Below are positions 22,968 through 52,593 of a DNA stretch of 52,593 nucleotides, piece by piece. Both the position numbers and the translations under genes were made by a program. Origin of the DNA: an uncultured bacterium (GTDB lineage: Bacteria; Actinomycetota; Actinomycetes; S36-B12; CAIYMF01); contig CAIYMF010000073.1 in the NCBI GenBank assembly GCA_903927265.1, positions 1 through 52,593 of the forward strand. The letters are read 5' to 3'. Every line of letters starts with the position of its first letter. Positions within the stretch are counted from its first letter, which is position 1. The notes beneath the pieces were generated by a model. That model made no database searches. It was not told where the DNA came from and worked only from the letters and a program-made list of their open reading frames with translations.

Positions 22968-22985
22968 GGATTCTCCGGTTCTGGA

Positions 22986-23028
22986 CGGGTGAGCCCGGCC
23001 GACCATGAAGGCCGACCGGGCTCACCCG
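22986..23028 (-). other. Strong intercistronic stem-loop after the substrate-binding protein gene
   Basis: Arms CGGGTGAGCCCGG (22986-22998) and CCGGGCTCACCCG (23016-23028) are perfectly complementary over 13 bp with a 17-nt loop. No U-tract follows. Lying just after the binding-protein stop and before the ATPase genes, it probably protects the upstream mRNA or causes partial termination, so the binding protein is made in excess. Confidence 0.7.
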
Positions 23029-23037
23029 AGGTGAGCG

Positions 23038-24411
23038 TCAGCTGCCGGGGATTGCTTCGGCCTTTGATCCGACGGGGATATCCAGGCCGCGCTTCTTTGC
23101 TACGGCGTTGGACACGATCACCAACTCGTACTTGTACTTGCTGCCCGCGGGGGCGAGGCGCCACTGTCCACCGGCAACCGGTGTGACTGCGACGTTCGGG
23201 CCGCCATCGGGACCCTTCTGGTTGGGATCCCACTGCACCTTGCCGACGATGGTGTCAGTGCCCAGGGTGCTGAGCGTCTTCACCAGTGCCGCCTTGTCAG
23301 TGGAACCTGACGTGGTGAGTGCGTTGGCTGCCACCTCGAAGAGGGCCTCGACGTAGCCGATCGGCTGCGTCCACTGCTTGCCCGTCTGCTCCTCGTAGAG
23401 GGCGCAGAATTCCTTCGGGGTCACACCGGTGAGGGAACTCGTGGTGGGCCAGGTCGGGTGCCACCACACCTCGGTCGACAGATCGTTACCGAGGTCGCCG
23501 AGTGCGTCGACGCTGCTCGGGAAGAGCAGGGCCTTACCGATGGTCGCTGCCTTCGGGTTGTATCCCTGCTGCTTGGCCTGCTTCCAGAACGTGGTGAAGT
23601 CAGGAGGGATCGGCACGCCGGTGAGAATCTCATCGTTCTGCTGCTTGAAGTAGTTGATCTGCGCAGTGAAGTCCTGAGTTCCGTTGGGGTACAGCGGGGG
23701 GAACGTCAACGTGTAACCGGCGGCCTTGTAGCCCTCGGGAAGGTTGGCGCTCCACGCCTGGCCATCAGGGTCGTTCGGGAAAAGTCCGCCGACCTTCTTG
23801 TTCGTGGGAATCTGGTTCCAGATGTCGACGAACGTGCCAGCGATGTCGCCCAGGCCCCAGAAGAAGTGGTAAGTCCACTGGAACTTGGCGTTGATGTCAC
23901 CCTTGCTGCGGCCGAGAACGTACGGCTGCCACGGCGCGTTGTCGGTGATACATGGCGTGGCGTTTGCCTCGCATGCATCGGCAACAGGGTTGACGATGTC
24001 GGGGGTTCCGGCGGCCATCACGATGTCGACGCCGTCGTTGTTGATCAGGTCAGCGGCTGCCTTGCCCGCCTTGGCGGAGTCGCTCTCAGCGTCCTTGACG
24101 ATGATGTCGACGTTGTAGGGCTTGCCACCGATTTGAAGGGGGTTCTTTGCGAAGTAGTCCTTCATGTAGTTGATGACGAAGGTGTCGCTCTCGCCAAACG
24201 GTGCCAAGGGTCCGGTCTGGGGTGACACGAAACCGATCTTGACGGTGCCAGCGGGTGCGGCGCTCTGGGATGCCGAGGCCGAGTCGGAAGCCGCTGTTGA
24301 GGCTGCCGCTGAACTGCTGCTGCTGTTGATACTTCCTCCGCCGCAGGCGGTGGCGCCCAGTGCTACTACTGCCACAAGGGCAGCAAACTGGGACTTCCTC
24401 CCGATCTTCAT
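23038..24411 (-). CDS. Lipoprotein substrate-binding protein of the ABC importer
   Basis: A 457-residue exported lipoprotein. The ATG at 24411 follows GGAG and gives MKIGRKSQFAALVAVVALGA, then the lipobox TACGGG (lipidated Cys near residue 23) and a Ser/Ala-rich linker. The mature protein has the type 1 periplasmic-binding fold of Leu/Ile/Val-binding proteins (TVKIGFVSPQTGPLAPFGES, then AADLINNDGVDIVMAAGTPDI). It catches the ligand outside the membrane and delivers it to LivHM. Ligand identity is unknown; operon context with a hydroxyquinol dioxygenase suggests an aromatic or aromatic-derived acid. It is the first gene of the operon, about 85 bp downstream of the palindrome at 24495-24532. 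Confidence 0.88.
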   Translation of the reverse strand: MKIGRKSQFAALVAVVALGATACGGGSINSSSSSAAASTAASDSASASQSAAPAGTVKIGFVSPQTGPLAPFGESDTFVINYMKDYFAKNPLQIGGKPYNVDIIVKDAESDSAKAGKAAADLINNDGVDIVMAAGTPDIVNPVADACEANATPCITDNAPWQPYVLGRSKGDINAKFQWTYHFFWGLGDIAGTFVDIWNQIPTNKKVGGLFPNDPDGQAWSANLPEGYKAAGYTLTFPPLYPNGTQDFTAQINYFKQQNDEILTGVPIPPDFTTFWKQAKQQGYNPKAATIGKALLFPSSVDALGDLGNDLSTEVWWHPTWPTTSSLTGVTPKEFCALYEEQTGKQWTQPIGYVEALFEVAANALTTSGSTDKAALVKTLSTLGTDTIVGKVQWDPNQKGPDGGPNVAVTPVAGGQWRLAPAGSKYKYELVIVSNAVAKKRGLDIPVGSKAEAIPGS

Positions 24412-33325: not shown

Positions 33326-34512
33326 ACCCGCTCGATGATCATTGCTGCGCCCTGGCCTACGCCGATGCACAGTGAAGCGATTCCGTAACGGCCGCCGGTG
33401 CGTTCGAGGTGTCCGAGAAGTGAGACCACGATGCGCGCACCGCTCGATCCGAGGGGGTGGCCCAGAGCAATTGCGCCACCACCGGGATTGAGTTGGGCGC
33501 GATCGAGTCCCAATTCCTTCTCGCACACCAGTACCTGCGCCGCGAATGCCTCGTTGATGTCGACGACATCAATATCGGCAAGCGTGAGGCCCGCTTTCTC
33601 TAGCGCGTGCCTGATGGCAGGGACAGGTCCGGTGCCAAACAGGCTGGGTGCCACTGCGGCCACGGCGTAACTCACGATCCGCGCGCGAGGTGTGAGTGAG
33701 TGAGTTGCGATTGCCTGTTCTCCCGCAACCACGATTGCGCTCGCTCCGTCAGACAACGGCGATGAGTTACCCGCGGTACTGATTCCGTCTGCACTGAACG
33801 CTGGTTTGAGTCGGCTCAGTGACTCGCGCGTGGTGGTGGCGCGGATCGTTTCGTCGCGTGTGAAGGGGCCCGTCGATGTGTGCACGGCCACAATCTCCGC
33901 CTCGAAATCACCCCGATCGTTCGCGGCTGCTGCCAGCGTCTGAGAGCGCAGTGCGTACTCGTCGGCAGAGTCGCGAGAGATGCCGTACATGCGTGCGATC
34001 TTCTCGGTGCATTCGCCGAGAGACAGGGTGGCGTCTGCGTCATCGAGTGCCGCCATGCGCGGGTTGACCAAACGCCAGCCGAGCGCAGTGTCGAACATCG
34101 GTCCGGGTTTGGCCCACGCGGCGGAGGGCTTGCCCATCACCCACGGAGCACGGGTCATCGACTCAGCGCCGCCTGCGATGCCGAGGTCGATGTCACCGGA
34201 TCGAATCGCTTGAGCTGACGACGCGATCGCTTGAAGCCCTGAGGCACAGAGACGGTTGACCGTGTAGCCAGGAACGCTGTCTGGAAGGCCAGCCAGCAGA
34301 ACCGCCATGCGCGCGACGTTGCGGTTGTCGTCACCGGCCTGATTGGCCGCCCCCAACACCACATCATCAATGCGGTCTGCGGGGACACCGGTGCGCGCAA
34401 CAACTTCACTGACGACAAGGGCGGCAAGATCGTCGGGACGTACTTCGGCGAGAGCGCCGCCGTATCGTCCAACGGGTGTACGAACACCTCCGACGAGAAA
34501 GACTTCAGTCAT
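33322..34512 (-). CDS. pcaF: 3-oxoadipyl-CoA/acetyl-CoA acetyltransferase (thiolase)
   Basis: A 396-residue thiolase that would split 3-oxoadipyl-CoA into succinyl-CoA and acetyl-CoA. The nucleophilic Cys is in VNRLCASGLQAIASSAQ, the His is in GGAIALGHPLGSSGAR, and the second Cys is in IASLCIGVGQG. VDINEAFAAQVL is the NEAF motif. It is the last step of the hydroquinone/hydroxyquinol pathway encoded here, although a general acetyl-CoA acetyltransferase role is possible. Its start overlaps the MoxR ATPase stop by 4 bp. Its stop overlaps the convergent VWA gene by 4 bp. Confidence 0.87.
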   Translation of the reverse strand: MTEVFLVGGVRTPVGRYGGALAEVRPDDLAALVVSEVVARTGVPADRIDDVVLGAANQAGDDNRNVARMAVLLAGLPDSVPGYTVNRLCASGLQAIASSAQAIRSGDIDLGIAGGAESMTRAPWVMGKPSAAWAKPGPMFDTALGWRLVNPRMAALDDADATLSLGECTEKIARMYGISRDSADEYALRSQTLAAAANDRGDFEAEIVAVHTSTGPFTRDETIRATTTRESLSRLKPAFSADGISTAGNSSPLSDGASAIVVAGEQAIATHSLTPRARIVSYAVAAVAPSLFGTGPVPAIRHALEKAGLTLADIDVVDINEAFAAQVLVCEKELGLDRAQLNPGGGAIALGHPLGSSGARIVVSLLGHLERTGGRYGIASLCIGVGQGAAMIIERV

Positions 34513-36469: not shown

Positions 36470-37569
36470 GTGGCCTCCCCGAGGGCGGGTGTTGCGGGTC
36501 GTCGTCGTTTTCCAATGAGATAGATACCCATCGTCACCATGCCGACGAGTAGCTGAGGCAAGAACCATACAAGTCGCCAAATGAGGTCTGCGGCAACGGC
36601 AGTTGAACTTTCGGCGCCGAAGGCGACGAGCAATGCCACCAGCGCCGCATCAACGGTGCCGAGGCCACCGGGGGTGAGCGGAAACGAGGTGAGTACGAGT
36701 GCGATCGCGTACGCGGCGAAGAGTTCGACCGTGGTGACCGGCGTGGGGTAGGCACCCAAGCCGGCGAGCGCACACAGCAGCACGAAGAACGGCGTCAGTT
36801 GCGCGATCGTGTTGGTGATCGTTAGTTGAATCCAACGCTCTTTGACGAGCGTGGCGGCGTGACTGCGGAAGTCGACGAGTCCGGCAACTGCGTCGGGCGC
36901 ATCCTTGTGCAGGCGCTTGAACACGGGGTTGACCAGTTTCTGCGCGAAGGCGCCCACTTTGGTGGCTCCGGCGTCGCTGCGCAAAATGATGATGATCGCG
37001 ATGACACTCACGACCACCGCGACAGCGCCGACGACAGCGAGCGTGGTGTAGCCCGCAGTCGAGCGCCCCTCAATGACAAGCAGGATCACGGCGAGTGCGG
37101 GAAACCCGAGGGTCAGCAAATACGTCCAGATCGCATCAGCTGACACCGCTGCTGCGGCTCGCGACGCACTGACGCCGTAGCGCGACAAGATGGCGTACTG
37201 CGTACCGACAGCAAAGGCGCCCCCGCCAGGAATCACGTTGCTGACAAGAAATCCTGACTGGCGCTCAATGAACGCGTGACGGTATTTGAACTCCGGTATC
37301 GCTGCGGGCACGGTCAAGGGGTAGAGCACGATGTTGAGCACCCCTGCGACGACCAGTGCCACGAGCCACTGAGGGCTGAAGTTCTTGAGTTGCGCGAGTG
37401 CGTCACCGTACGAGCCCATCTTGGGAAAGAGGAGTGCGAAAACGCCCACCATGATGACCACGCCGATGATGCTGGTGATGACGAAGCTCTTGGTGCTGCG
37501 CTTGGGCGGCACCGGCAATTCCCCAGCCTCGATCTTGGCCTCGAGGGGGTTGGGTTCCGGCGACGACAT
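36466..37569 (-). CDS. Flippase-like membrane protein (lysylphosphatidylglycerol synthase TM region/UPF0104)
   Basis: A 367-residue polytopic protein with about eight hydrophobic spans (e.g. FVITSIIGVVIMVGVFALLF, WLVALVVAGVLNIVLYPLTV, TLGFPALAVILLVIEG). The family motif NVIPGGGAFAVGTQYAILSRYGVS and the C-terminal LTSFPLTPGGLGTVDAALVALLVAFG are diagnostic of the LPG-synthase TM/UPF0104 family. No catalytic LPG domain is present, so lipid or lipid-linked intermediate transport is the likely role. The ATG at 37569 is probably leaderless. It is followed by PPK2 with a 4-bp overlap. Confidence 0.82.
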   Translation of the reverse strand: MSSPEPNPLEAKIEAGELPVPPKRSTKSFVITSIIGVVIMVGVFALLFPKMGSYGDALAQLKNFSPQWLVALVVAGVLNIVLYPLTVPAAIPEFKYRHAFIERQSGFLVSNVIPGGGAFAVGTQYAILSRYGVSASRAAAAVSADAIWTYLLTLGFPALAVILLVIEGRSTAGYTTLAVVGAVAVVVSVIAIIIILRSDAGATKVGAFAQKLVNPVFKRLHKDAPDAVAGLVDFRSHAATLVKERWIQLTITNTIAQLTPFFVLLCALAGLGAYPTPVTTVELFAAYAIALVLTSFPLTPGGLGTVDAALVALLVAFGAESSTAVAADLIWRLVWFLPQLLVGMVTMGIYLIGKRRRPATPALGEAT

Positions 37570-37575
37570 GGAGCC

Positions 37576-37581
37576 AGACTA
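37576..37581 (-). promoter_or_regulatory. Putative -10 box of a leaderless transcript
   Basis: On the minus strand TAGTCT ends 6 nt before the ATG at 37569 of the flippase-PPK2 operon; no ribosome-binding site is present. Confidence 0.55.
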
Positions 37582-37633
37582 GGCGTACGCGGCGTTGTGT
37601 TTGGGATGGATACGCGGGTCGGTGCAGATTGGC

Positions 37634-37639
37634 TAGCCT
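37634..37639 (+). promoter_or_regulatory. Putative -10 box of a leaderless transcript
   Basis: TAGCCT ends 6 nt before the ATG at 37646 of the PhyH gene. The same hexamer at the same distance precedes the gene at 48638. The two divergent leaderless promoters here leave only 76 bp between start codons. Confidence 0.55.
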
Positions 37640-37645
37640 GAGCCC

Positions 37646-38446
37646 ATGGCGTTCACTCTGGAAGAGTCAGCGGTTGCCGACTACGCCCGCGATGGGGTGG
37701 TTGTGGTTCGGGGTGCTTTCAGCGCCGAGGACGTGGCCCTCGTGGCCGCCGGTATCGAAGCAAACCTCGCGTCCCCTGGCCCGCTGGTGGCCGTGGCGAG
37801 TGAGGCAGATGATCCGGGGCGCTTCATCGAAGACTTCTGCAACTGGCAGCGCATTGCCGAGTTCGACCAATTCATTCGCTCGTCGTGCGCTGCCTCGATT
37901 GCCCAGCAGTTGATGGCAAGCAGCACCGTGCGGCTGTACCACGACCATTTGTTGGTCAAGGAGGCGTCGACGCGTCAGCGCACGCCGTGGCATCAAGACA
38001 TTCCGTACTACAACGTCGATGGATTTCAGAATGTGTCGATGTGGATGCCCGTCGATCCGGTGCCCGTCGAGTCGACGCTTGAGTTCATCGCCGGCACCCA
38101 CCTCGGGCCGTGGCTCATGCCGCGCACCTTCAAGGACGCGCAGGCCAAGTGGTTTCCGGAAGGCACGCTTGCTGACCTGCCCGACATCGAAGCCGACCGC
38201 GACGCTTTCCCAATACTGGCGTGGGCACTCGAGCCTGGTGACGCGGTGTTCTTCCACATGCTGACGGTGCACGGTGCGGCCGGAAGTTCAGCGCTGCGAA
38301 GGGTTTTCTCGGTGCGATTCCTCGGCGATGACATGGTGCACGCGCCTCGCCGGTGGCGTACATCGCCCCAGTTCGAGGGTCTTGTTGATGAGCTGCCCGC
38401 TGGCGTTGCGATGGACCATCCGCTGTTCCCGCTACTCATTGGCTGA
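37646..38446 (+). CDS. Phytanoyl-CoA dioxygenase (PhyH) family protein
   Basis: A 266-residue Fe(II)/2-oxoglutarate oxygenase of the PhyH family. The facial triad is His116-x-Asp118 (TPWHQDIPYYN) and His209 (LTVHGAAGSS), with Arg218/219 (RRVFSVRFLG) for 2-oxoglutarate. The N-terminus DYARDGVVVVRGAFSAEDV and the stretch VESTLEFIAGTHLGPW are typical. It hydroxylates an unknown small molecule. It stands alone, followed by a 509-bp gap with repeats and hairpins. Confidence 0.85.
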   Translation: MAFTLEESAVADYARDGVVVVRGAFSAEDVALVAAGIEANLASPGPLVAVASEADDPGRFIEDFCNWQRIAEFDQFIRSSCAASIAQQLMASSTVRLYHDHLLVKEASTRQRTPWHQDIPYYNVDGFQNVSMWMPVDPVPVESTLEFIAGTHLGPWLMPRTFKDAQAKWFPEGTLADLPDIEADRDAFPILAWALEPGDAVFFHMLTVHGAAGSSALRRVFSVRFLGDDMVHAPRRWRTSPQFEGLVDELPAGVAMDHPLFPLLIG

Positions 38447-38449
38447 GTC

Positions 38450-38480
38450 GGTGCTGCAGGTGCGGCAGGTGCTGCAGGTG
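38450..38480 (+). repeat. 9-bp tandem repeat just after the PhyH stop
   Basis: GGTGCTGCA is repeated three times in a row (middle copy GGTGCGGCA) and followed by a partial fourth copy. It begins 4 bp after the PhyH stop codon. It could arise by slippage; no function is visible. Confidence 0.6.
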
Positions 38481-38499
38481 TAGCTGTGGATGAACTTGG

Positions 38500-38820
38500 G
38501 GACTACCTGTGCACAACTGCGGGTGAATCGGTGGGTAACCGGTGGATATCTCTGTGGGTATGAAATATATCGAGAAGTTCGCCGAAAGCTCTTGTGTAGC
38601 AACGGAATCGGGGAGTAGAACTATGTCTGCAAGCAGGAACGACAGTCGGACCGGAAGAGACAGGGAAACCTGAGGAGCCGGGAGAGCGGATCGGGAAACC
38701 GGATCGCGCGGCGGAAAGCTCGGGAAACCGAGTGGGACGTCGGATGGCAGTCAGGAATGCAGGCAACGCCGGTGTAAGGCGAGGGCCGCGGGTAACCGAG
38801 GTTCATGCCAGCGCAGGCAC
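38500..38820 (+). ncRNA. Candidate structured RNA with several GNRA-capped hairpins
   Basis: The 38447-38955 gap contains no credible gene. On the plus strand it carries hairpins closed by GNRA tetraloops: CAGG-GAAA-CCTG (38661-38672), GATCGG-GAAA-CCGGATC with one bulge (38689-38705), CTCGG-GAAA-CCGAG (38719-38732) and CGG-GTAA-CCG (38789-38798). A CGCC/GGCG stem and a further GG-GTAA-CC near 38540 add to it. On the other strand the loops would read TTTC, so the plus strand is the likely RNA. A very strong terminator stem follows at 38822-38858. It matches no RNA class I know (not RNase P, tmRNA, SRP, 6S or a cobalamin riboswitch). Start, end and function are unknown. Confidence 0.4.
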
Positions 38821-38821
38821 A

Positions 38822-38858
38822 GTGGGGCCCCTTGAGCTCATACCTCAAGGGGCCCCAC
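38822..38858. terminator. Strong bidirectional stem-loop terminator candidate
   Basis: GTGGGGCCCCTTGAG (38822-38836) and CTCAAGGGGCCCCAC (38844-38858) are perfect 15-bp arms with a 7-nt loop. CACAG before and CTGTG after can extend the stem. There is no U-tract, as is common in actinobacteria. It can end transcripts from the plus strand (PhyH or the candidate RNA) and from the converging RDD gene. Confidence 0.7.
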
Positions 38859-38955
38859 GACTGTGTCCACACGGGTAGCTGATCTCTACGAGTGCTGTTA
38901 TTGAGCCTAGCCTTGTGAAGGCGCTTCGCCCGCCAGCGACATTCCGCTGTGTTGA

Positions 38956-39654
38956 TCAGTTGCGCACGACGTAGGTTCCGGCAGCCTTGTCCATCCACGC
39001 CTGTCGTTTGGGATCCCTCAGCATCGAAAGGTAGTTGACGATCCCGCCGATGGCAGCGATGAAGCCAACAAAGGGGATTGCGGCGGCGAGATTGAATCCG
39101 GCAACGATGCCTTCGCGCAGGAAGGAAGCGCCCCAGGTGGGGTTGTTTCCGTTCTCGTCAACGCAGCGGATTCCAACCGCGAGGCCACCGATGGTGCGTC
39201 CCCACACGTGCAGTGCGATGCCGAAGTAGAGCAGATTGAGCGCGGCTGAGATCAGCGTGATTCCGGCGAGGGCGGTGACTGGAATCGAGTTCGTCAACTG
39301 CTCGCTGAGGTTGTTGATTTGGTCAGGGGTCGGGTTGGGGCCGAGCGCCTCAATCTTCTTGGTCATGTCAGCGATCGCCGGCCGCAACGCGTTGGCGAGC
39401 AGAATTAGCATCGGAATGGCTAGGAGGAGGCCGTCAATCGTGAGTCCGAAGAAGCGGCGCCAGAATCCTGCGTAAGGTCGCCCACCAGGACCGAGCGGTA
39501 ACGCTGTTCGCGTGGCACCGGCACCCACGGGGGCGACGTTGGCGGTCCACTGGCTGCCATCCCAGTAGCGCAGTTGCCCTGGGTCTGACGGATCGGGATA
39601 CCAGTTGGCCGAGGGATTCTGCGGGGTTTCCGGAGGCAGCGGAGGAAAACTCAT
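38956..39654 (-). CDS. DUF2510 and RDD domain membrane protein
   Basis: A 232-residue protein. The N-terminal DUF2510 motif is ANWYPDPSDPGQLRYWDGSQWT (residues ~16-37), an actinobacterial cytoplasmic tag. The RDD domain follows: RPYAGFWRRFFGLTIDGLLL (Arg and Asp-Asp-like positions), a span at LLAIPMLILLANAL, TALAGITLISAALNLLYFGI and GRTIGGLAVGIRCVDENG, and a final span. The function of RDD proteins is unclear; some act as Na+(Li+)/H+ antiporters or compatible-solute-related proteins. It lies downstream of the candidate RNA on the opposite strand. Confidence 0.85.
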   Translation of the reverse strand: MSFPPLPPETPQNPSANWYPDPSDPGQLRYWDGSQWTANVAPVGAGATRTALPLGPGGRPYAGFWRRFFGLTIDGLLLAIPMLILLANALRPAIADMTKKIEALGPNPTPDQINNLSEQLTNSIPVTALAGITLISAALNLLYFGIALHVWGRTIGGLAVGIRCVDENGNNPTWGASFLREGIVAGFNLAAAIPFVGFIAAIGGIVNYLSMLRDPKRQAWMDKAAGTYVVRN

Positions 39655-39704
39655 GCCTCCATGATCACACCCAGTCGTTGAGTAGCGGTGGAGGCGCCGT
39701 CAGG

Positions 39705-40904
39705 ATGGTCGGTATGGCGGCCGATGAGACCGCGTCGCGACTGACGCGCAGGTTGGGATTGGCGGGTGCCACGGCCGTGGGCCTTGGCGCGATGCTGGGG
39801 ACGGGCGTCTTTGCCGCGTGGACTCCCGCTCTCCTGTTCGCAGGTGATCAACTGCTCATCGCGCTCGTGATCGCGGCGGTTGTTGCTTCTCTCAATGCGT
39901 GGTCGTCGGTGCGACTTGCAGCCGCGCACCCTGTGTCGGGCGGCTCCTACGCGTACGGCCGGCGTTGGTTGGGCCGCGGGCCAGGTGTCACCGCTGGCGT
40001 GGCTTTTGTTGTGGGGAAGTCGGCATCGGCGGGTGCGGCCGCCTTGACGATTGGCGCCTATCTCGCGCCGGAGTATCAGCGCTGGATTGCTCTGGCAGCG
40101 GTTGTCATCATGCTTGCGGTCGACCTTGTGGGAGTGAAGTTCTCGGCAGCAGTCACGGGGGTACTCAGTCTCGTCGTGATTTTGGTGTTGGTCTGGCTCG
40201 TCTGGCGAGTGACGCTCGGAATCAATACGACCGCAACGAACAGTGCGTCGCTGGCCGGAGTGAACCACGGTTTAAGGGGGTTGCTGGCGGCGTCGGCGGT
40301 CTTGTTCGTCGCGTTCGCTGGGTACGCGCGTGTGACCGTGCTCGGCGAGGAAGTGCGTCAGCCGCGTAGAAACATTCCGCGCGCTGTCGCGGTGTCGTTG
40401 GCGGTGACGTTGGTGCTCTATGTCGGCGTCGGATTCGCTGTGCTTCTCGCTAGTAATGCGGGTATCGCCTTGGGGCGCGCACCTCTGAGTGACATCGCTG
40501 CGGTGTGTGGCCCGGAGCTGCTTGCGAGCGTTGTTCCCGTCGCCGCGGTGATTGCTGCTGGAACCGCGCTGATGTCGCTGATTGCGGGCTTGGGCCGCAC
40601 GATCTTTGCCATGGCGGATGAAGGCGATGCGCCGGGCCGACTTGCGGCAGTGAGCGCGCGCAAGGTTCCGGTGATGGCTGAGCTGGCAGCTGTCGTGCTT
40701 GTGCTGGTGGTGGTGGCGGCGGGGGGTATCGCAGGCGCTCTGGCTCTCTCGGCTGGCTCTATCGGTATCTACTACGCAGTCGCTCATCTGTCGGCACTGC
40801 GCATGGGATCTGAGGGCCGACCGCCGCTGTGGGTTCCGATATCGGGTCTGGTGGGATGTCTGACCCTGGTGGTGGGGGCACTGCTCGCGATCTCGGCGGG
40901 CTAG
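39705..40904 (+). CDS. APC-family amino acid permease
   Basis: About 399 residues, polytopic (12 or so spans). The APC signature is present at the N-terminus (RRLGLAGATAVGLGAMLGTGVFAAWTPAL) and VSGGSYAYGRRWLGRGPGVTAGVAFVVGKSASAG follows, the substrate-binding unwound-helix region. AVLFVAFAGYARVTVLGEEVRQPRRNIPRAV is the conserved middle loop of the APC superfamily. It would bring in an amino acid or polyamine with H+. The start is either the ATG at 39705 (GGAGG 10 nt upstream) or the ATG at 39714; I prefer the first. Divergent from the RDD gene. Confidence 0.82.
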   Translation: MVGMAADETASRLTRRLGLAGATAVGLGAMLGTGVFAAWTPALLFAGDQLLIALVIAAVVASLNAWSSVRLAAAHPVSGGSYAYGRRWLGRGPGVTAGVAFVVGKSASAGAAALTIGAYLAPEYQRWIALAAVVIMLAVDLVGVKFSAAVTGVLSLVVILVLVWLVWRVTLGINTTATNSASLAGVNHGLRGLLAASAVLFVAFAGYARVTVLGEEVRQPRRNIPRAVAVSLAVTLVLYVGVGFAVLLASNAGIALGRAPLSDIAAVCGPELLASVVPVAAVIAAGTALMSLIAGLGRTIFAMADEGDAPGRLAAVSARKVPVMAELAAVVLVLVVVAAGGIAGALALSAGSIGIYYAVAHLSALRMGSEGRPPLWVPISGLVGCLTLVVGALLAISAG

Positions 40905-40987
40905 GTCGTCGCATGGCTGGGGTAAGAAAACTGCGCCTATGCGTGCTTAATGTCCCCCCATGCGGAAAAGGGCAGGGGGAATGGGGG

Positions 40988-41026
40988 AAGGGCCGGCGTG
41001 GTGCCGAAGCACCAACGCCGACCCTT
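40988..41026 (-). terminator. Terminator hairpin of the molybdenum hydroxylase operon
   Basis: On the minus strand a stem of about 15 bp with TTCG tetraloop (GGTGC-TTCG-GCACC at its tip), one bulge and one mismatch, begins 11 bp after the stop of the FAD subunit gene. A C/T-rich tail follows. It separates the operon from the convergent permease gene. Confidence 0.75.
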
Positions 41027-41036
41027 CCTGGTGAAG

Positions 41037-41891
41037 CTAGATACCCGAAGCTGCCTCAACGGCGCGACGGGTGAGAACCGCCGCGAGGTGCTTGCGGTAC
41101 TCACTGTCGGCGTGCAGGTCGCTGGTGGGCGACGTACCGTCGGCAGCCTTGCTGGCCGCGGCCGCGATTGCGTCAGACGACGACGCGCCTGCCAGAGCGG
41201 CCTCAACACCAGTGGCACGGATAGGAGTGGCACCCATGTTGGTCAGCGCCACTCGTGCCTCGGTGATGGTTCCGTTCTCGCTCTTGACCGCTGCGGCAAC
41301 GCCGACGATGGCCCACGCCTGAGCGGTGCGGTTGAACTTCTGGTAGTTGTAACTCCAGCCAGCGCCCAACTTCGGAACGCGGACTGCCACCAGAACTTCG
41401 TCAGCTGCGAGCGCGGTGGTGAAGTAGTCAACGAAGAAGTCCTTCGCCGCTACCGTGCGCCGGCCGTTGGGACCAGCAATCACCATTTCGCAATCGAGTG
41501 CGGCCGCCACGGTGGGCAGGTCTCCCGCGGGGTCAGCGTGTGCCACTGAGCCGCCGAAGGTTCCCTTGTGACGAATCGCAGGGTCTGCCACCGCACCGGC
41601 CGTCAGCGACAGCAGGCCAGCGTGTTCCTTGACGAGTTCGCTGTGCATGACCTCGTAGGTGGTGACGGATGCGCCGATGAGCAGGGCGTCGCCATCGTCA
41701 GTCAGTGCGCGCATCTCGCCCACCTCGCTGACGTCGATGAGGACACTGGGTGCGTTGAGCCGCAAGCGAAGCACCGGCAGCAATGACTGCCCTCCACCGA
41801 GAACCTTGGCGTCTTCACCACCCTTGACGAGTGCTGCCACCGCCTCGTCAACGGTCGATGCCTTCACGTAGTCGAAGGATGCGGGAATCAT
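41037..41891 (-). CDS. Molybdenum hydroxylase FAD-binding subunit (CoxM-like)
   Basis: A 284-residue FAD-binding subunit of a xanthine-dehydrogenase/CO-dehydrogenase type enzyme. The ATG at 41891 has AGGAGG 7 nt upstream and shares its A with the large-subunit stop (TGATG). The FAD motifs are AKVLGGGQSLLPVLRLRL (residues ~29-46) and AIRHKGTFGGSVAHADPAGDLP (the TxGGxxxxxDPxxD stretch). It carries electrons from the 2Fe-2S subunit to the acceptor. It is the last gene of the operon and a strong hairpin follows. The earlier ATG seen in frame overlaps the large subunit and is rejected. Confidence 0.9.
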   Translation of the reverse strand: MIPASFDYVKASTVDEAVAALVKGGEDAKVLGGGQSLLPVLRLRLNAPSVLIDVSEVGEMRALTDDGDALLIGASVTTYEVMHSELVKEHAGLLSLTAGAVADPAIRHKGTFGGSVAHADPAGDLPTVAAALDCEMVIAGPNGRRTVAAKDFFVDYFTTALAADEVLVAVRVPKLGAGWSYNYQKFNRTAQAWAIVGVAAAVKSENGTITEARVALTNMGATPIRATGVEAALAGASSSDAIAAAASKAADGTSPTSDLHADSEYRKHLAAVLTRRAVEAASGI

Positions 41892-50002: not shown

Positions 50003-51468
50003 ACCACGTAGCACCTCTTCCCGAGGACGGTATGACCGATGACGAGATCATCGCGGTGCTTCGCGCGTATCGCGCTGATGACGTTCCTACGACCGGTGGC
50101 CGCACTACGGCGTACGTTTACGACTCGGGGCTCGCTGGGCTTTCTGAACTCGGTGTACGCGCATACGAAGTGAGTCAGTCGGTCAACGGACTCGACCCGA
50201 CCGCATTTCCAAGTTTCGCTCGGATCGAAAACGATCTCGTGGCCGCCGCCGCCTCACTGCTGGGTGGCGATGAACGCACCGCTGGAACTGCGACGAGTGG
50301 CGGTACGGAATCGTGTGCACTTGCCGTGCTTGGTGCACGTGAACGCTGGCGCGCCAATGGCGGTGAAGGGCGCGCGCGGCTCGTCGCTGCGAGCAGTGCG
50401 CATCCTGCGTTCCGTAAAGCCGCCCATCTGTTCGACCTTGAGTACGTGGCAGTTCCCATTGATGCGACGACCGGTCGGGCCGACGTAGACGCGATGATTG
50501 CCGCGATGGATGCGCGCACTGCGTTGGTTGTCGTGTCATGGCCGTCGTATCCGCTCGGTGTTGTTGATCCAGTTGAGCCAATCGCAGCCGCTGCGTCAGA
50601 ACGCGGCATCTGGTGTCACCTCGATGCGTGCATCGGCGGGTGGGTGCTGCCGTTCATTCGTGAAGCAGAAGGTCTCCCTGCGATCGATCTACGCACGCCC
50701 GGTATCACGTCGGTGTCGGTCGACATTCATAAGTACGGCTACTCGCCGAAGGGTTCGTCGGTGCTGCTGCACCGGGATGCGTCGTTGCGTCGCTGGCATT
50801 GGTTCAGCACTGCTGATTGGCCCGGCTACCCGGTAGTGAACTCGACGTTATTGAGTACGCGTGCAGGCGGGCCGCCCGCTGTTGCCTGGGCGTTCGTGCA
50901 TCGCATCGGACGCGATGGGTATCGCGAACTTGCACTCGCAGCGCGTCGCACGGTGCTCGCGATGGCAGAGGGAATCAATGCGATCGAAGGCTTGCGGGTA
51001 GTGGGCTCGCCCGATGCCACCCTGATCGCGTTCACTGACACGGCGGGAGACGAGTCACCGGATGTCTTGGTGGTGGCTGATGAAATGTCGGCGCGCGGTT
51101 GGCTGATTGGATCGCAGCCTTCGCACAGCGGACTTCCGACGACGGTGCATGTGTCGGCCAGTGCGGTGCTTGAACCGGTGGTGCCGCAATTCCTCGACGA
51201 CCTGCGCGCTGCAGTGGCCGCTGCTCGCGAACTGCCGCGCGCAACCCCTGATGCGAATCTGGTTGCTTTCGCCGCGGCCATCGATCCGGCTGATCTCACG
51301 CCCGAACTCATTGCCTCGGCGCTGGAGGGCTTGGGTCTTGCCGGCGGTGGCGCGCTTCCGGAACGGATGGCGCCGATCAACGCATTGATGGGTGCGCTGC
51401 CAGCGCCACTGACCGAGATTCTCTTGACGGAGATTCTTTCGGGCATCTACACGCCGCAGCGCGACTGA
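49999..51468 (+). CDS. PLP-dependent decarboxylase/lyase (sphingosine-1-phosphate lyase-like)
   Basis: A 489-residue fold-type I PLP enzyme of the group II decarboxylase/S1P-lyase family. TATSGGTESCALAVLGARERW is the phosphate-binding loop (SGGTES), then HLDACIGGWVLPFIREAEG carries the Asp that pairs with the pyridine N, and SVDIHKYGYSPKGSSVLLHRD contains the PLP-binding Lys. Glutamate decarboxylases have the same order, but the HKYGYxPKG motif favours the S1P-lyase-like branch. The substrate is unknown; translational coupling with a GPH transporter suggests an imported compound. A strong hairpin follows. Confidence 0.8.
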   Translation: MNHVAPLPEDGMTDDEIIAVLRAYRADDVPTTGGRTTAYVYDSGLAGLSELGVRAYEVSQSVNGLDPTAFPSFARIENDLVAAAASLLGGDERTAGTATSGGTESCALAVLGARERWRANGGEGRARLVAASSAHPAFRKAAHLFDLEYVAVPIDATTGRADVDAMIAAMDARTALVVVSWPSYPLGVVDPVEPIAAAASERGIWCHLDACIGGWVLPFIREAEGLPAIDLRTPGITSVSVDIHKYGYSPKGSSVLLHRDASLRRWHWFSTADWPGYPVVNSTLLSTRAGGPPAVAWAFVHRIGRDGYRELALAARRTVLAMAEGINAIEGLRVVGSPDATLIAFTDTAGDESPDVLVVADEMSARGWLIGSQPSHSGLPTTVHVSASAVLEPVVPQFLDDLRAAVAAARELPRATPDANLVAFAAAIDPADLTPELIASALEGLGLAGGGALPERMAPINALMGALPAPLTEILLTEILSGIYTPQRD

Positions 51469-51480
51469 CTCGTTTGACTA

Positions 51481-51526
51481 CTAAGCCCTGCATCTCTCAG
51501 CGGGTTGTGAGCGATGCAGGGCTTAG
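51481..51526. terminator. Bidirectional terminator hairpin
   Basis: CTAAGCCCTGCATC (51481-51494) and GATGCAGGGCTTAG (51513-51526) are perfect 14-bp arms. The loop contains a second small stem (CTCA/TGAG). It lies between the convergent PLP enzyme and glycosyltransferase genes and can serve both. Confidence 0.82.
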
Positions 51527-51543
51527 CAATCGGGCACTGTGTT

Positions 51544-52593
51544 CTAGGAGGTAGTGCCCGACGTCGGTGCGGTGAGGTCGTAGACGGTGACGCCTCCGAC
51601 GGTCGTTGCGGTGAAGTTGGCCTGCACCCACGTGCTGATTTCCGACGCGCTACCACTGGTAGAGGGGCCGCCGGGACCACCACCGCCACCAGGTCCGTCG
51701 CCGCCCTCGATTCCGTAGTGAATCTTGTGGGCTGCAACCAGTGCTTGGAACTGCGCCAGCGTCGGGCTGGGGTCGCTTCCGTTGAAGCCACCGACCGCCA
51801 GTACTGGCTTTCCGGTGGCGAGTTGGTAACCCGCACCGCTGTTCGCGCCAACAGTCGCCGCTACCCAGGTGTACTGATCGGCGTTGGCGCTGAGCAGTGC
51901 GGTGAGCTCGGCGGTGGGTGTACTGCCGTTGAGTAGTCCACCTGCACCACCCGTTCCACCGGGGCCGCCTGTTCCACCGCCTGTTCCACCGCCGGGCAAG
52001 CCGCCGCCGGGGAGGCCGCCGCCGGGGAGGCCGCCGCCAGGAAGTGCACCGCCGGGCAATGTGCCACCAGGTAGCGCACCGCCGGGGAATGTGCCACCGC
52101 CGGGCACGGTCTGGCCGTTCTGACCGCCAGGTCCGCCAGCGCCACCGGGTCCGCGACCGCCACCGGGGCCGAAGCGACCGCCAGCGACCGCCGGGCCAGC
52201 CGTGGGAAGTGAACCCTCGTGGGCCGTCATTGCCGTGTTGACGGCGTACGCGGCGGGTCCTGCCAAGCCCGCGATCAGAGCGGCAGCGGCAATCACGAGC
52301 GCACCCCGTGCACTGAGCCAGTGCAAACCGAGCATTCCGGCCGCAGCGCCAATTCCGACAATGAGAACGGCCGGGGCTAGCCACGGTAGGAAGGTGCTCG
52401 AGCGACTGAGCAAGACCCACGCCCACCAGGCAGTGACAGCAGTCGTTGCCGCGAGTAGGACGCGCGCCCACAGATTCGCGCGTTCACGCCATAGCCACAC
52501 TGCGCCGATTCCAACAAGAGCGCCGATCGCTGGTGCAAGAGCCACCGTGTAGTACTCGTGAATGATTCCTTGGCTCAGTGAGATAACGAGGCC
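51544..52593 (-). CDS. GT39/ArnT-YkcB type glycosyltransferase, N-terminus beyond window
   Basis: The frame is open to the window edge (349 residues visible, 5' end missing). Its first visible residues GIIHEYYTVALAPAIGALVG are the conserved loop of ArnT/YkcB-like polyprenyl-phosphate-sugar transferases. Four hydrophobic spans follow, then a very long Gly/Pro linker, then the C-terminal domain typical of actinobacterial members (QYTWVAATVGANSGAGYQLATGKPVLAVGGFNGSDPSPTLAQFQ...IHYGIEGGDG). Such enzymes transfer a sugar from a polyprenyl-phosphate donor outside the membrane. A GTG at 52545 is only an internal codon, not the start. Confidence 0.85.
   Translation of the reverse strand, partial: GLVISLSQGIIHEYYTVALAPAIGALVGIGAVWLWRERANLWARVLLAATTAVTAWWAWVLLSRSSTFLPWLAPAVLIVGIGAAAGMLGLHWLSARGALVIAAAALIAGLAGPAAYAVNTAMTAHEGSLPTAGPAVAGGRFGPGGGRGPGGAGGPGGQNGQTVPGGGTFPGGALPGGTLPGGALPGGGLPGGGLPGGGLPGGGTGGGTGGPGGTGGAGGLLNGSTPTAELTALLSANADQYTWVAATVGANSGAGYQLATGKPVLAVGGFNGSDPSPTLAQFQALVAAHKIHYGIEGGDGPGGGGGPGGPSTSGSASEISTWVQANFTATTVGGVTVYDLTAPTSGTTS
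51938..52183 (-). repeat. Gly/Pro/Leu low-complexity repeat inside the glycosyltransferase
   Basis: About 80 codons encode GGG-x-LPGG repeats (GGALPGGTLPGGALPGGGLPGG and similar). At DNA level a 15-bp unit close to AGGCCGCCGCCGGGG is repeated near 52005-52050. It is a flexible linker between membrane and C-terminal domains and prone to length variation. Confidence 0.8.

Follow-up and report, generated by a model that had tools for sequence, protein, structure and literature searches.

Large orphan RNAs of bacteria, such as OLE, ROOL, GOLLD and raiA, are branched, rich in GNRA loops and of unclear function; 6S RNA is shaped as a single long rod interrupted by a bubble at its centre. In Mycobacterium tuberculosis, the gap between the protein gene Rv3843c and the non-coding RNA RVnc0040 is described as one of five strongly bound DnaA regions (PMC7738170), and the small RNA MTS2975, which we assume to be the same RNA as RVnc0040, sits between Rv3843c and Rv3844 according to PMC3207917. 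In Escherichia coli, the tRNA-Gly operon glyV-X-Y is located upstream of the datA locus, which is described as regulated by transcription of that operon (PMC10950094). The oriC of E. coli contains arrays of low-affinity DnaA boxes arranged in the same direction with 2-bp spacing (as reported in PMC6727663), and weak DnaA boxes of this bacterium are stated to be three to four bases off the consensus (PMC4585315).

Here we describe what appears to be one compact locus in a 52.6-kb window (the whole stretch of DNA analysed, 52,593 nucleotides) of an uncultured lake actinobacterium (genome G000). It would be composed of a 79-bp array of DnaA-box-like repeats, an AT-rich stretch, a putative branched RNA of about 250 nt with four GNRA-capped hairpins and a terminator-like stem. 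Like OLE, ROOL, GOLLD and raiA, the candidate RNA is branched and GNRA-rich; unlike them, it has no Rfam match, a narrower distribution and an unrelated context. With Ms1/6S RNA, as described in PMC9130861 and PMC3207917, it shares the character of a structured intergenic actinobacterial RNA of about 300 nt, but it forms a branched domain and not a long rod, has no HAD-hydrolase neighbour and matches no Rfam model. An assignment to the Ms1/6S type by synteny was rejected, the neighbours being PhyH and RDD genes and not the HAD-hydrolase and oxidoreductase genes reported for Ms1 (PMC9130861). A parallel in arrangement is the Rv3843c-RVnc0040 region, also in an actinobacterium, where a DnaA region sits in the gap that separates a protein gene from a non-coding RNA; the likeness is one of position, and DnaA binding was measured there (PMC7738170) whereas it is predicted here.

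The gap at 38447-38955 separates a gene of the phytanoyl-CoA dioxygenase family (PhyH; 37646-38446, plus strand; Pfam PF05721, E 3e-21) from a gene for an RDD-family membrane protein with DUF2510 (38956-39654, minus strand; PF06271, E 3e-20), and the two genes converge. Within the genus, the locus and both neighbours recur in a single further genome, a MAG from Lake Pavin (G001, contig C3). Between the two genomes, the segment 38483-38858 is identical at 345 of 376 positions (91.8%) without indels, compared with 83 of 139 four-fold sites (60%) in PhyH and 89 of 125 (71%) in the RDD gene; as yardsticks, the RNase P RNA is 96.3% and the dnaA-dnaN gap (oriC) 87.4% identical. A protein-coding element was rejected, since the 30 substitutions over 330 aligned bases have no codon phase (10/9/11). 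The element is thus conserved beyond neutral sites, noncoding and, as set out below, preserved in its fold, as expected for a new family of structured RNA. Its left edge is marked by an unconserved 36-bp spacer after the PhyH stop codon (38447-38482, plus strand; 10 of 19 aligned bases identical, 17 gap columns). Right behind the stop codon, at 38450-38480, this spacer carries a tandem 9-mer, GGTGCTGCA, which is absent from G001. On the other side, a conserved tail (38859-38955; 86 of 97 positions identical, gapless) reaches the 3' end of the RDD gene and includes a DnaA-like 9-mer at 38863.

The evidence for folding was obtained on both strands. The fold energy of 38500-38870 lies well below that of shuffled sequences on the plus strand (z -5.2; minus strand, z -2.5), and for 38571-38820 alone the values are -3.8 and -0.9, respectively. 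Local fold energy is good but not unique within the window: among the 656 windows (160 nt each) of a coarse scan, the plus-strand segments 38816-38975 and 38656-38815 took ranks 4 and 20, and 38496-38655 took rank 559. Folds about as strong or stronger were seen at 51456-51615, 22976-23135, 33376-33535 and 40896-41055, all with ranks 1-7 of 656.

A consensus fold of 38571-38820 built from both genomes contains 76 pairs in 11 helices, every pair being formed in both sequences. Fourteen of the 76 pairs vary, each by a change on one side, and all are kept by alternation of G-U with G-C or A-U. The opposite strand would therefore carry A-C mismatches in one of the two species, and this alternation is the best argument pointing to an RNA read from the plus strand. 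The earlier note, which had proposed a structured RNA between the two genes, had named a lack of compensatory base changes in related genomes, together with the absence of a plus-strand transcript, as evidence against it. In the two sequences compared, double compensatory changes were found in none of the 76 pairs, so that the support from covariation appears real but thin.

We also placed the same substitutions at random positions and recomputed the consensus energy (200 randomisations with G001 as reference). On the plus strand, the observed energy of -94.7 was lower than the null mean of -78.1 (sd 5.1; P 0.005 with G000 as reference, 0 of 200 with G001). The real changes break three and three pairs of the reference MFE structures on this strand, fewer than the expected 6.9 and 7.0 (P 0.020 and 0.015). 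For the minus strand, four and eight pairs are broken, with 6.2 and 8.7 expected (P 0.12 and 0.45); the minus-strand consensus energy likewise falls below its null (P 0.005 and 0.025), but the MFE and broken-pair measures do not.

In the consensus fold, the proposed RNA, including the terminator-like stem, occupies 38571-38858 of the plus strand, with an estimated 5' end. It begins with a stem-loop region (38576-38622), the least certain part, which folds differently in G000 alone. A central domain (38624-38765) is closed by a 9-bp stem and branches into three hairpins with GAAA loops: hairpin 1 at 38651-38681 (inner stem 38661-38672), hairpin 2 at 38686-38707 and hairpin 3 at 38709-38742, the latter two each with three varying pairs kept. 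A 3' hairpin (38768-38818) follows, with 19 pairs, a GUAA loop and four varying pairs kept. This structural model, built from two sequences, is provisional. An alternative longer fold starting at 38488 (103 pairs, 12 varying pairs kept) is consistent with both sequences and pairs 38490-38511 with 38787-38806; it was set aside because its 5' arm is filled by the repeat array. The true 5' end of the RNA decides between the long and the short fold.

The earlier note had also described at least four short stems with GAAA or GTAA loops in the plus sense. When GNRA loops closed by at least three Watson-Crick pairs were counted in 38500-38858, the plus strand indeed had four such stems, starting at 38661, 38692, 38719 and 38789, whereas the minus strand had none; with at least four pairs, the counts were two and zero. 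The mean number is 0.23 per 359-nt tile (5224 overlapping tiles, both strands of the window), and the 12 tiles that reach four stems all overlap this locus. In 3000 dinucleotide shuffles, the probability of at least four stems was 0.0007. In the longer fold, the upstream repeats are the pairing partner of the GTAA stretch, which then forms no hairpin of its own; the fourth GNRA loop thus depends on where the RNA starts.

The perfect 15-bp terminator stem of the same description was confirmed as a stem, GTGGGGCCCCTTGAG/CTCAAGGGGCCCCAC being exact at 38822-38836/38844-38858 (plus strand; 7-nt loop), but not as an intrinsic terminator in the sense of a strong G+C stem followed by a T-run: the stem has no T-run behind it and is absent from the hits of the terminator scan. 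The stem is one of just two perfect hairpins of at least 11 bp (loop 3-10) in the window, and all 36 bases of 38823-38858 are identical in G001.

Neither a TANNNT -10 hexamer (plus strand, 38250-38620) nor any match in a promoter scan of 37000-40500 was detected. The transcript may therefore come from PhyH or from a promoter of an undetectable type. This bears on the explanation that the element is the 3' UTR of PhyH, a tail that protects or terminates the PhyH mRNA and is possibly later cut off as a small RNA. The two lie on the same strand, the conserved part begins 37 bases past the PhyH stop codon, a terminator-like stem stands at the end and an own promoter was not found. However, PhyH orthologues elsewhere in the family (58-68% identity) are closely followed by coding sequence or unrelated DNA, and a branched structure of 250 nt exceeds the needs of termination, which makes a mere mRNA tail improbable.

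Searches for known families returned nothing that could account for the element. Rfam 15 (4227 models) gave no match at the gathering score over the whole window, in agreement with the earlier statement that no RNA family was recognised; in 38300-39000 at E up to 5, the matches were limited to two hairpins that fit microRNA models by chance. RNase P RNA class A (RF00010) was dismissed as a candidate, the genome's copy being on contig C353 (302 bits). A covariance search, which the earlier note had proposed, recovered G001 but no further confirmed homologue. In 166 genomes of the order, covariance model R1 matched G000 and G001 only. Among 394 genomes of the class, it gave weak matches in two further genomes; the two in G509 proved to be a PGEPG coding repeat, and that in G424 is GC-rich and scores 19.8 bits. 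With laxer filters in 40 relatives, the best match outside the genus was a 24-nt hairpin (E 0.019), and an unfiltered search of 11 PhyH/RDD loci yielded scattered weak matches of at best 13 bits. Model R2, run on 396 genomes of the phylum, found G000 and one match inside dnaN of G852, a distant actinobacterium. In this genome a 17-nt stretch, GGATCGCGCGGCGGAAA, identical to the RNA, lies antisense within dnaN (L091, 1300-1800), probably by chance. An antisense relation of the RNA to the dnaA-dnaN region was rejected, strong complementarity not being found. A pattern derived from a perfectly conserved 54-nt block retrieved one contig of GTDB r220, JAPLAU010000018.1 (Lake Pavin MAG), and had no match in viral contigs. 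Three viral contigs with the triple-hairpin pattern were discarded as simple or coding-type repeats.

Conservation, fold energy and G-U-compatible substitutions thus lend good support to the earlier proposal of a structured plus-strand RNA outside the known families, and we consider it very likely, as judged from the two sequences, that this candidate is real. Conservation of this strength in a structured RNA usually signals an important role, and the candidate has no match among the families of Rfam 15.

Besides the RNA, we found a repeat array that the earlier note had overlooked. Located just upstream, at 38484-38562, it consists of seven head-to-tail units of 11-12 bp (plus strand; boxes read on the minus strand), which start at 38484, 38496, 38507, 38518, 38529, 38540 and 38552. 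An AT-rich stretch, TATGAAATATAT (38559-38570, plus strand), lies immediately 3' of it and showed no TANNNT hexamer in the hexamer scan. The coordinates of the element should be widened upstream to 38484 to take in the array. Its chain score of 46/63 was reached by none of 150 shuffles (mean 35.8, sd 1.6), in a test that is post hoc, as the array was first noticed on inspection. Tandem Repeats Finder did not list it, as expected for copies this degenerate.

The unit consensus reads CTGTGGATAAA; its reverse complement, TTTATCCACAG, includes a DnaA box. When 38483-38590 was compared with TTATCCACA/TTGTCCACA, seven sites with at most two mismatches were found, where 0.64 are expected and 0 of 2000 shuffles gave as many; one of the seven overlaps on the opposite strand. 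Two sites had at most one mismatch (P 0.0025). In the frame used for the comparison, the 9-mers of the seven units differ from TTWTNCACA by 1, 3, 1, 5, 2, 2 and 2 bases in unit order. None is a perfect DnaA box, but six of the seven have the properties of a low-affinity array, i.e., 9-mers close to TTWTNCACA in the same direction at a spacing of about 11 bp; the fourth unit does not. Arrays of E. coli oriC are similar in having weak 9-mers in the same direction about 11 bp apart, as reported in PMC6727663, but the array described here lies outside oriC, has seven units and adjoins an RNA candidate.

To follow the array elsewhere, we used a pattern of three units cut from it. Within the order, G000 and G001 each contain a single match, and the remaining 164 genomes have none. 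In 394 genomes of the class, the pattern matched seven, the two of the genus and five outside. One of these matches lies in the dnaA-dnaN gap of G378, and another in an origin-proximal parS cluster of G166, beside parA, parB, gidB and yidC; the remaining three are perfect short repeats. As the pattern reversed for use as a control had matches in just as many of the 394 genomes (7), it is the places of the matches and not their raw count that speak for DnaA. We lean towards a DnaA-type array. In G166 (L064/L089), nine parS-type sites and DnaA-box arrays are grouped within a few kilobases around parA/parB.

Direct repeats spaced by 11 bp are also typical of PhoB/PhoP-type sites. It is conceivable, though unlikely, that there is a structured RNA alone, the repeats being an operator for another regulator or the 5' part of the RNA itself. 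In favour of this, the longer fold draws the repeats into pairing, regulators of the OmpR/PhoB type likewise recognise direct repeats at intervals of about 11 bp, and pstS of G000 is preceded by the repeats GTTCATC-N4-GTTCATG (read by eye). Nevertheless, CTGTGGATAAA, as the reverse complement of a DnaA-box-bearing sequence, differs from the pstS repeats, and arrays of the same type occur at an oriC (G378) and in an origin-proximal region (G166) of other actinobacteria. A Pho box (PhoP/RegX3 type) was rejected for the array, its consensus differing from the GTTCATC repeats of pstS. Such GTTCATC-type direct repeats, 11 bp apart, stand upstream of pstS in this genus (L059, L060) and are perhaps a Pho operator; the repeat matrix gave no array-like cluster upstream of pstS.

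The array is the densest DnaA-like cluster of the window (7 per 100 nt) and, in G001, of the 150.6 kb of contig C3 (6 per 100 nt), above the dnaA contigs. Similarly to datA/DARS of E. coli, it is a DnaA-box cluster outside oriC beside a non-coding transcription unit (PMC10950094), but it has no strong box, and hydrolysis of DnaA-ATP or release of ADP is only putative here. An array that titrates DnaA or alters its nucleotide state, with the RNA incidental or acting through read-through transcription, would fit this density and the description of datA as regulated by read-through transcription from tRNA-Gly (glyV-X-Y; PMC10950094). Since the boxes are weak and the constraint on a plus-strand RNA would be left unexplained, such a role seems to us rather improbable.

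The joint presence of a DnaA-like array, an AT-rich stretch and hairpins might also indicate an element that acts as DNA and encodes no functional RNA, such as a secondary origin or what is left of an integrated replicon, and a similar array occurs in at least 120 stretches of viral contigs. Yet GC skew keeps its sign at the locus, both in the window and in C3 of G001, and a chromosomal oriC was rejected for this reason. The sign changes at dnaA-dnaN in both genomes (G000, contig C272, from -0.108 to +0.064; G001, contig C23), and dnaA and dnaN of G000 flank a gap of their own, with exact DnaA boxes, on another contig. Each of the 14 varying pairs alternates with G-U and would be a mismatch in one species if the minus strand or the DNA were the folded form, and no plasmid or phage record matches the locus. 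A purely DNA-level element is accordingly very improbable. The viral stretches (including L092-L171) carry three GTGGRTA repeats in the same direction, 11-12 bp apart, which perhaps represent DnaA-type arrays in phages; model R2 gave no match in 80 viral loci with the array pattern.

Our preferred reading, a structured non-coding RNA restricted to the genus and controlled by DnaA on the array, is tentative as a whole, and a functional link between array and RNA is plausible without being probable. As no promoter was found, we infer the link to DnaA, including transcription of the RNA, binding of DnaA and the direction of control. In the most likely scenario, cooperative binding of DnaA to the array would govern transcription into the RNA; RNA output would then track the DnaA-ATP state and, with it, the replication cycle, and the RNA may act in trans as a folded scaffold. 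If the array binds DnaA, the locus ties replication initiation to a non-coding RNA, and the role of DnaA sites outside oriC in actinobacteria becomes directly testable. The stronger version, in which a large structured RNA is switched by polymerisation of DnaA-ATP on the seven boxes of an array outside oriC, is doubtful; if true, the cell-cycle initiator directly times an RNA effector, and the locus would join Rv3843c-RVnc0040 as a second case among actinobacteria in which a DnaA site accompanies a non-coding RNA gene.

Two minor observations concern the terminator-like stem. Long near-perfect hairpins without T-runs, resembling the one at 38822-38858, are present at 51456-51615 and 22976-23135. 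Finally, a TAGGCT hexamer of the TANNNT type, also present in G001, lies on the minus strand at 38904-38909, between the end of the RDD gene and the 15-bp stem, and could mark the start of a short minus-strand transcript with this stem as its stop.
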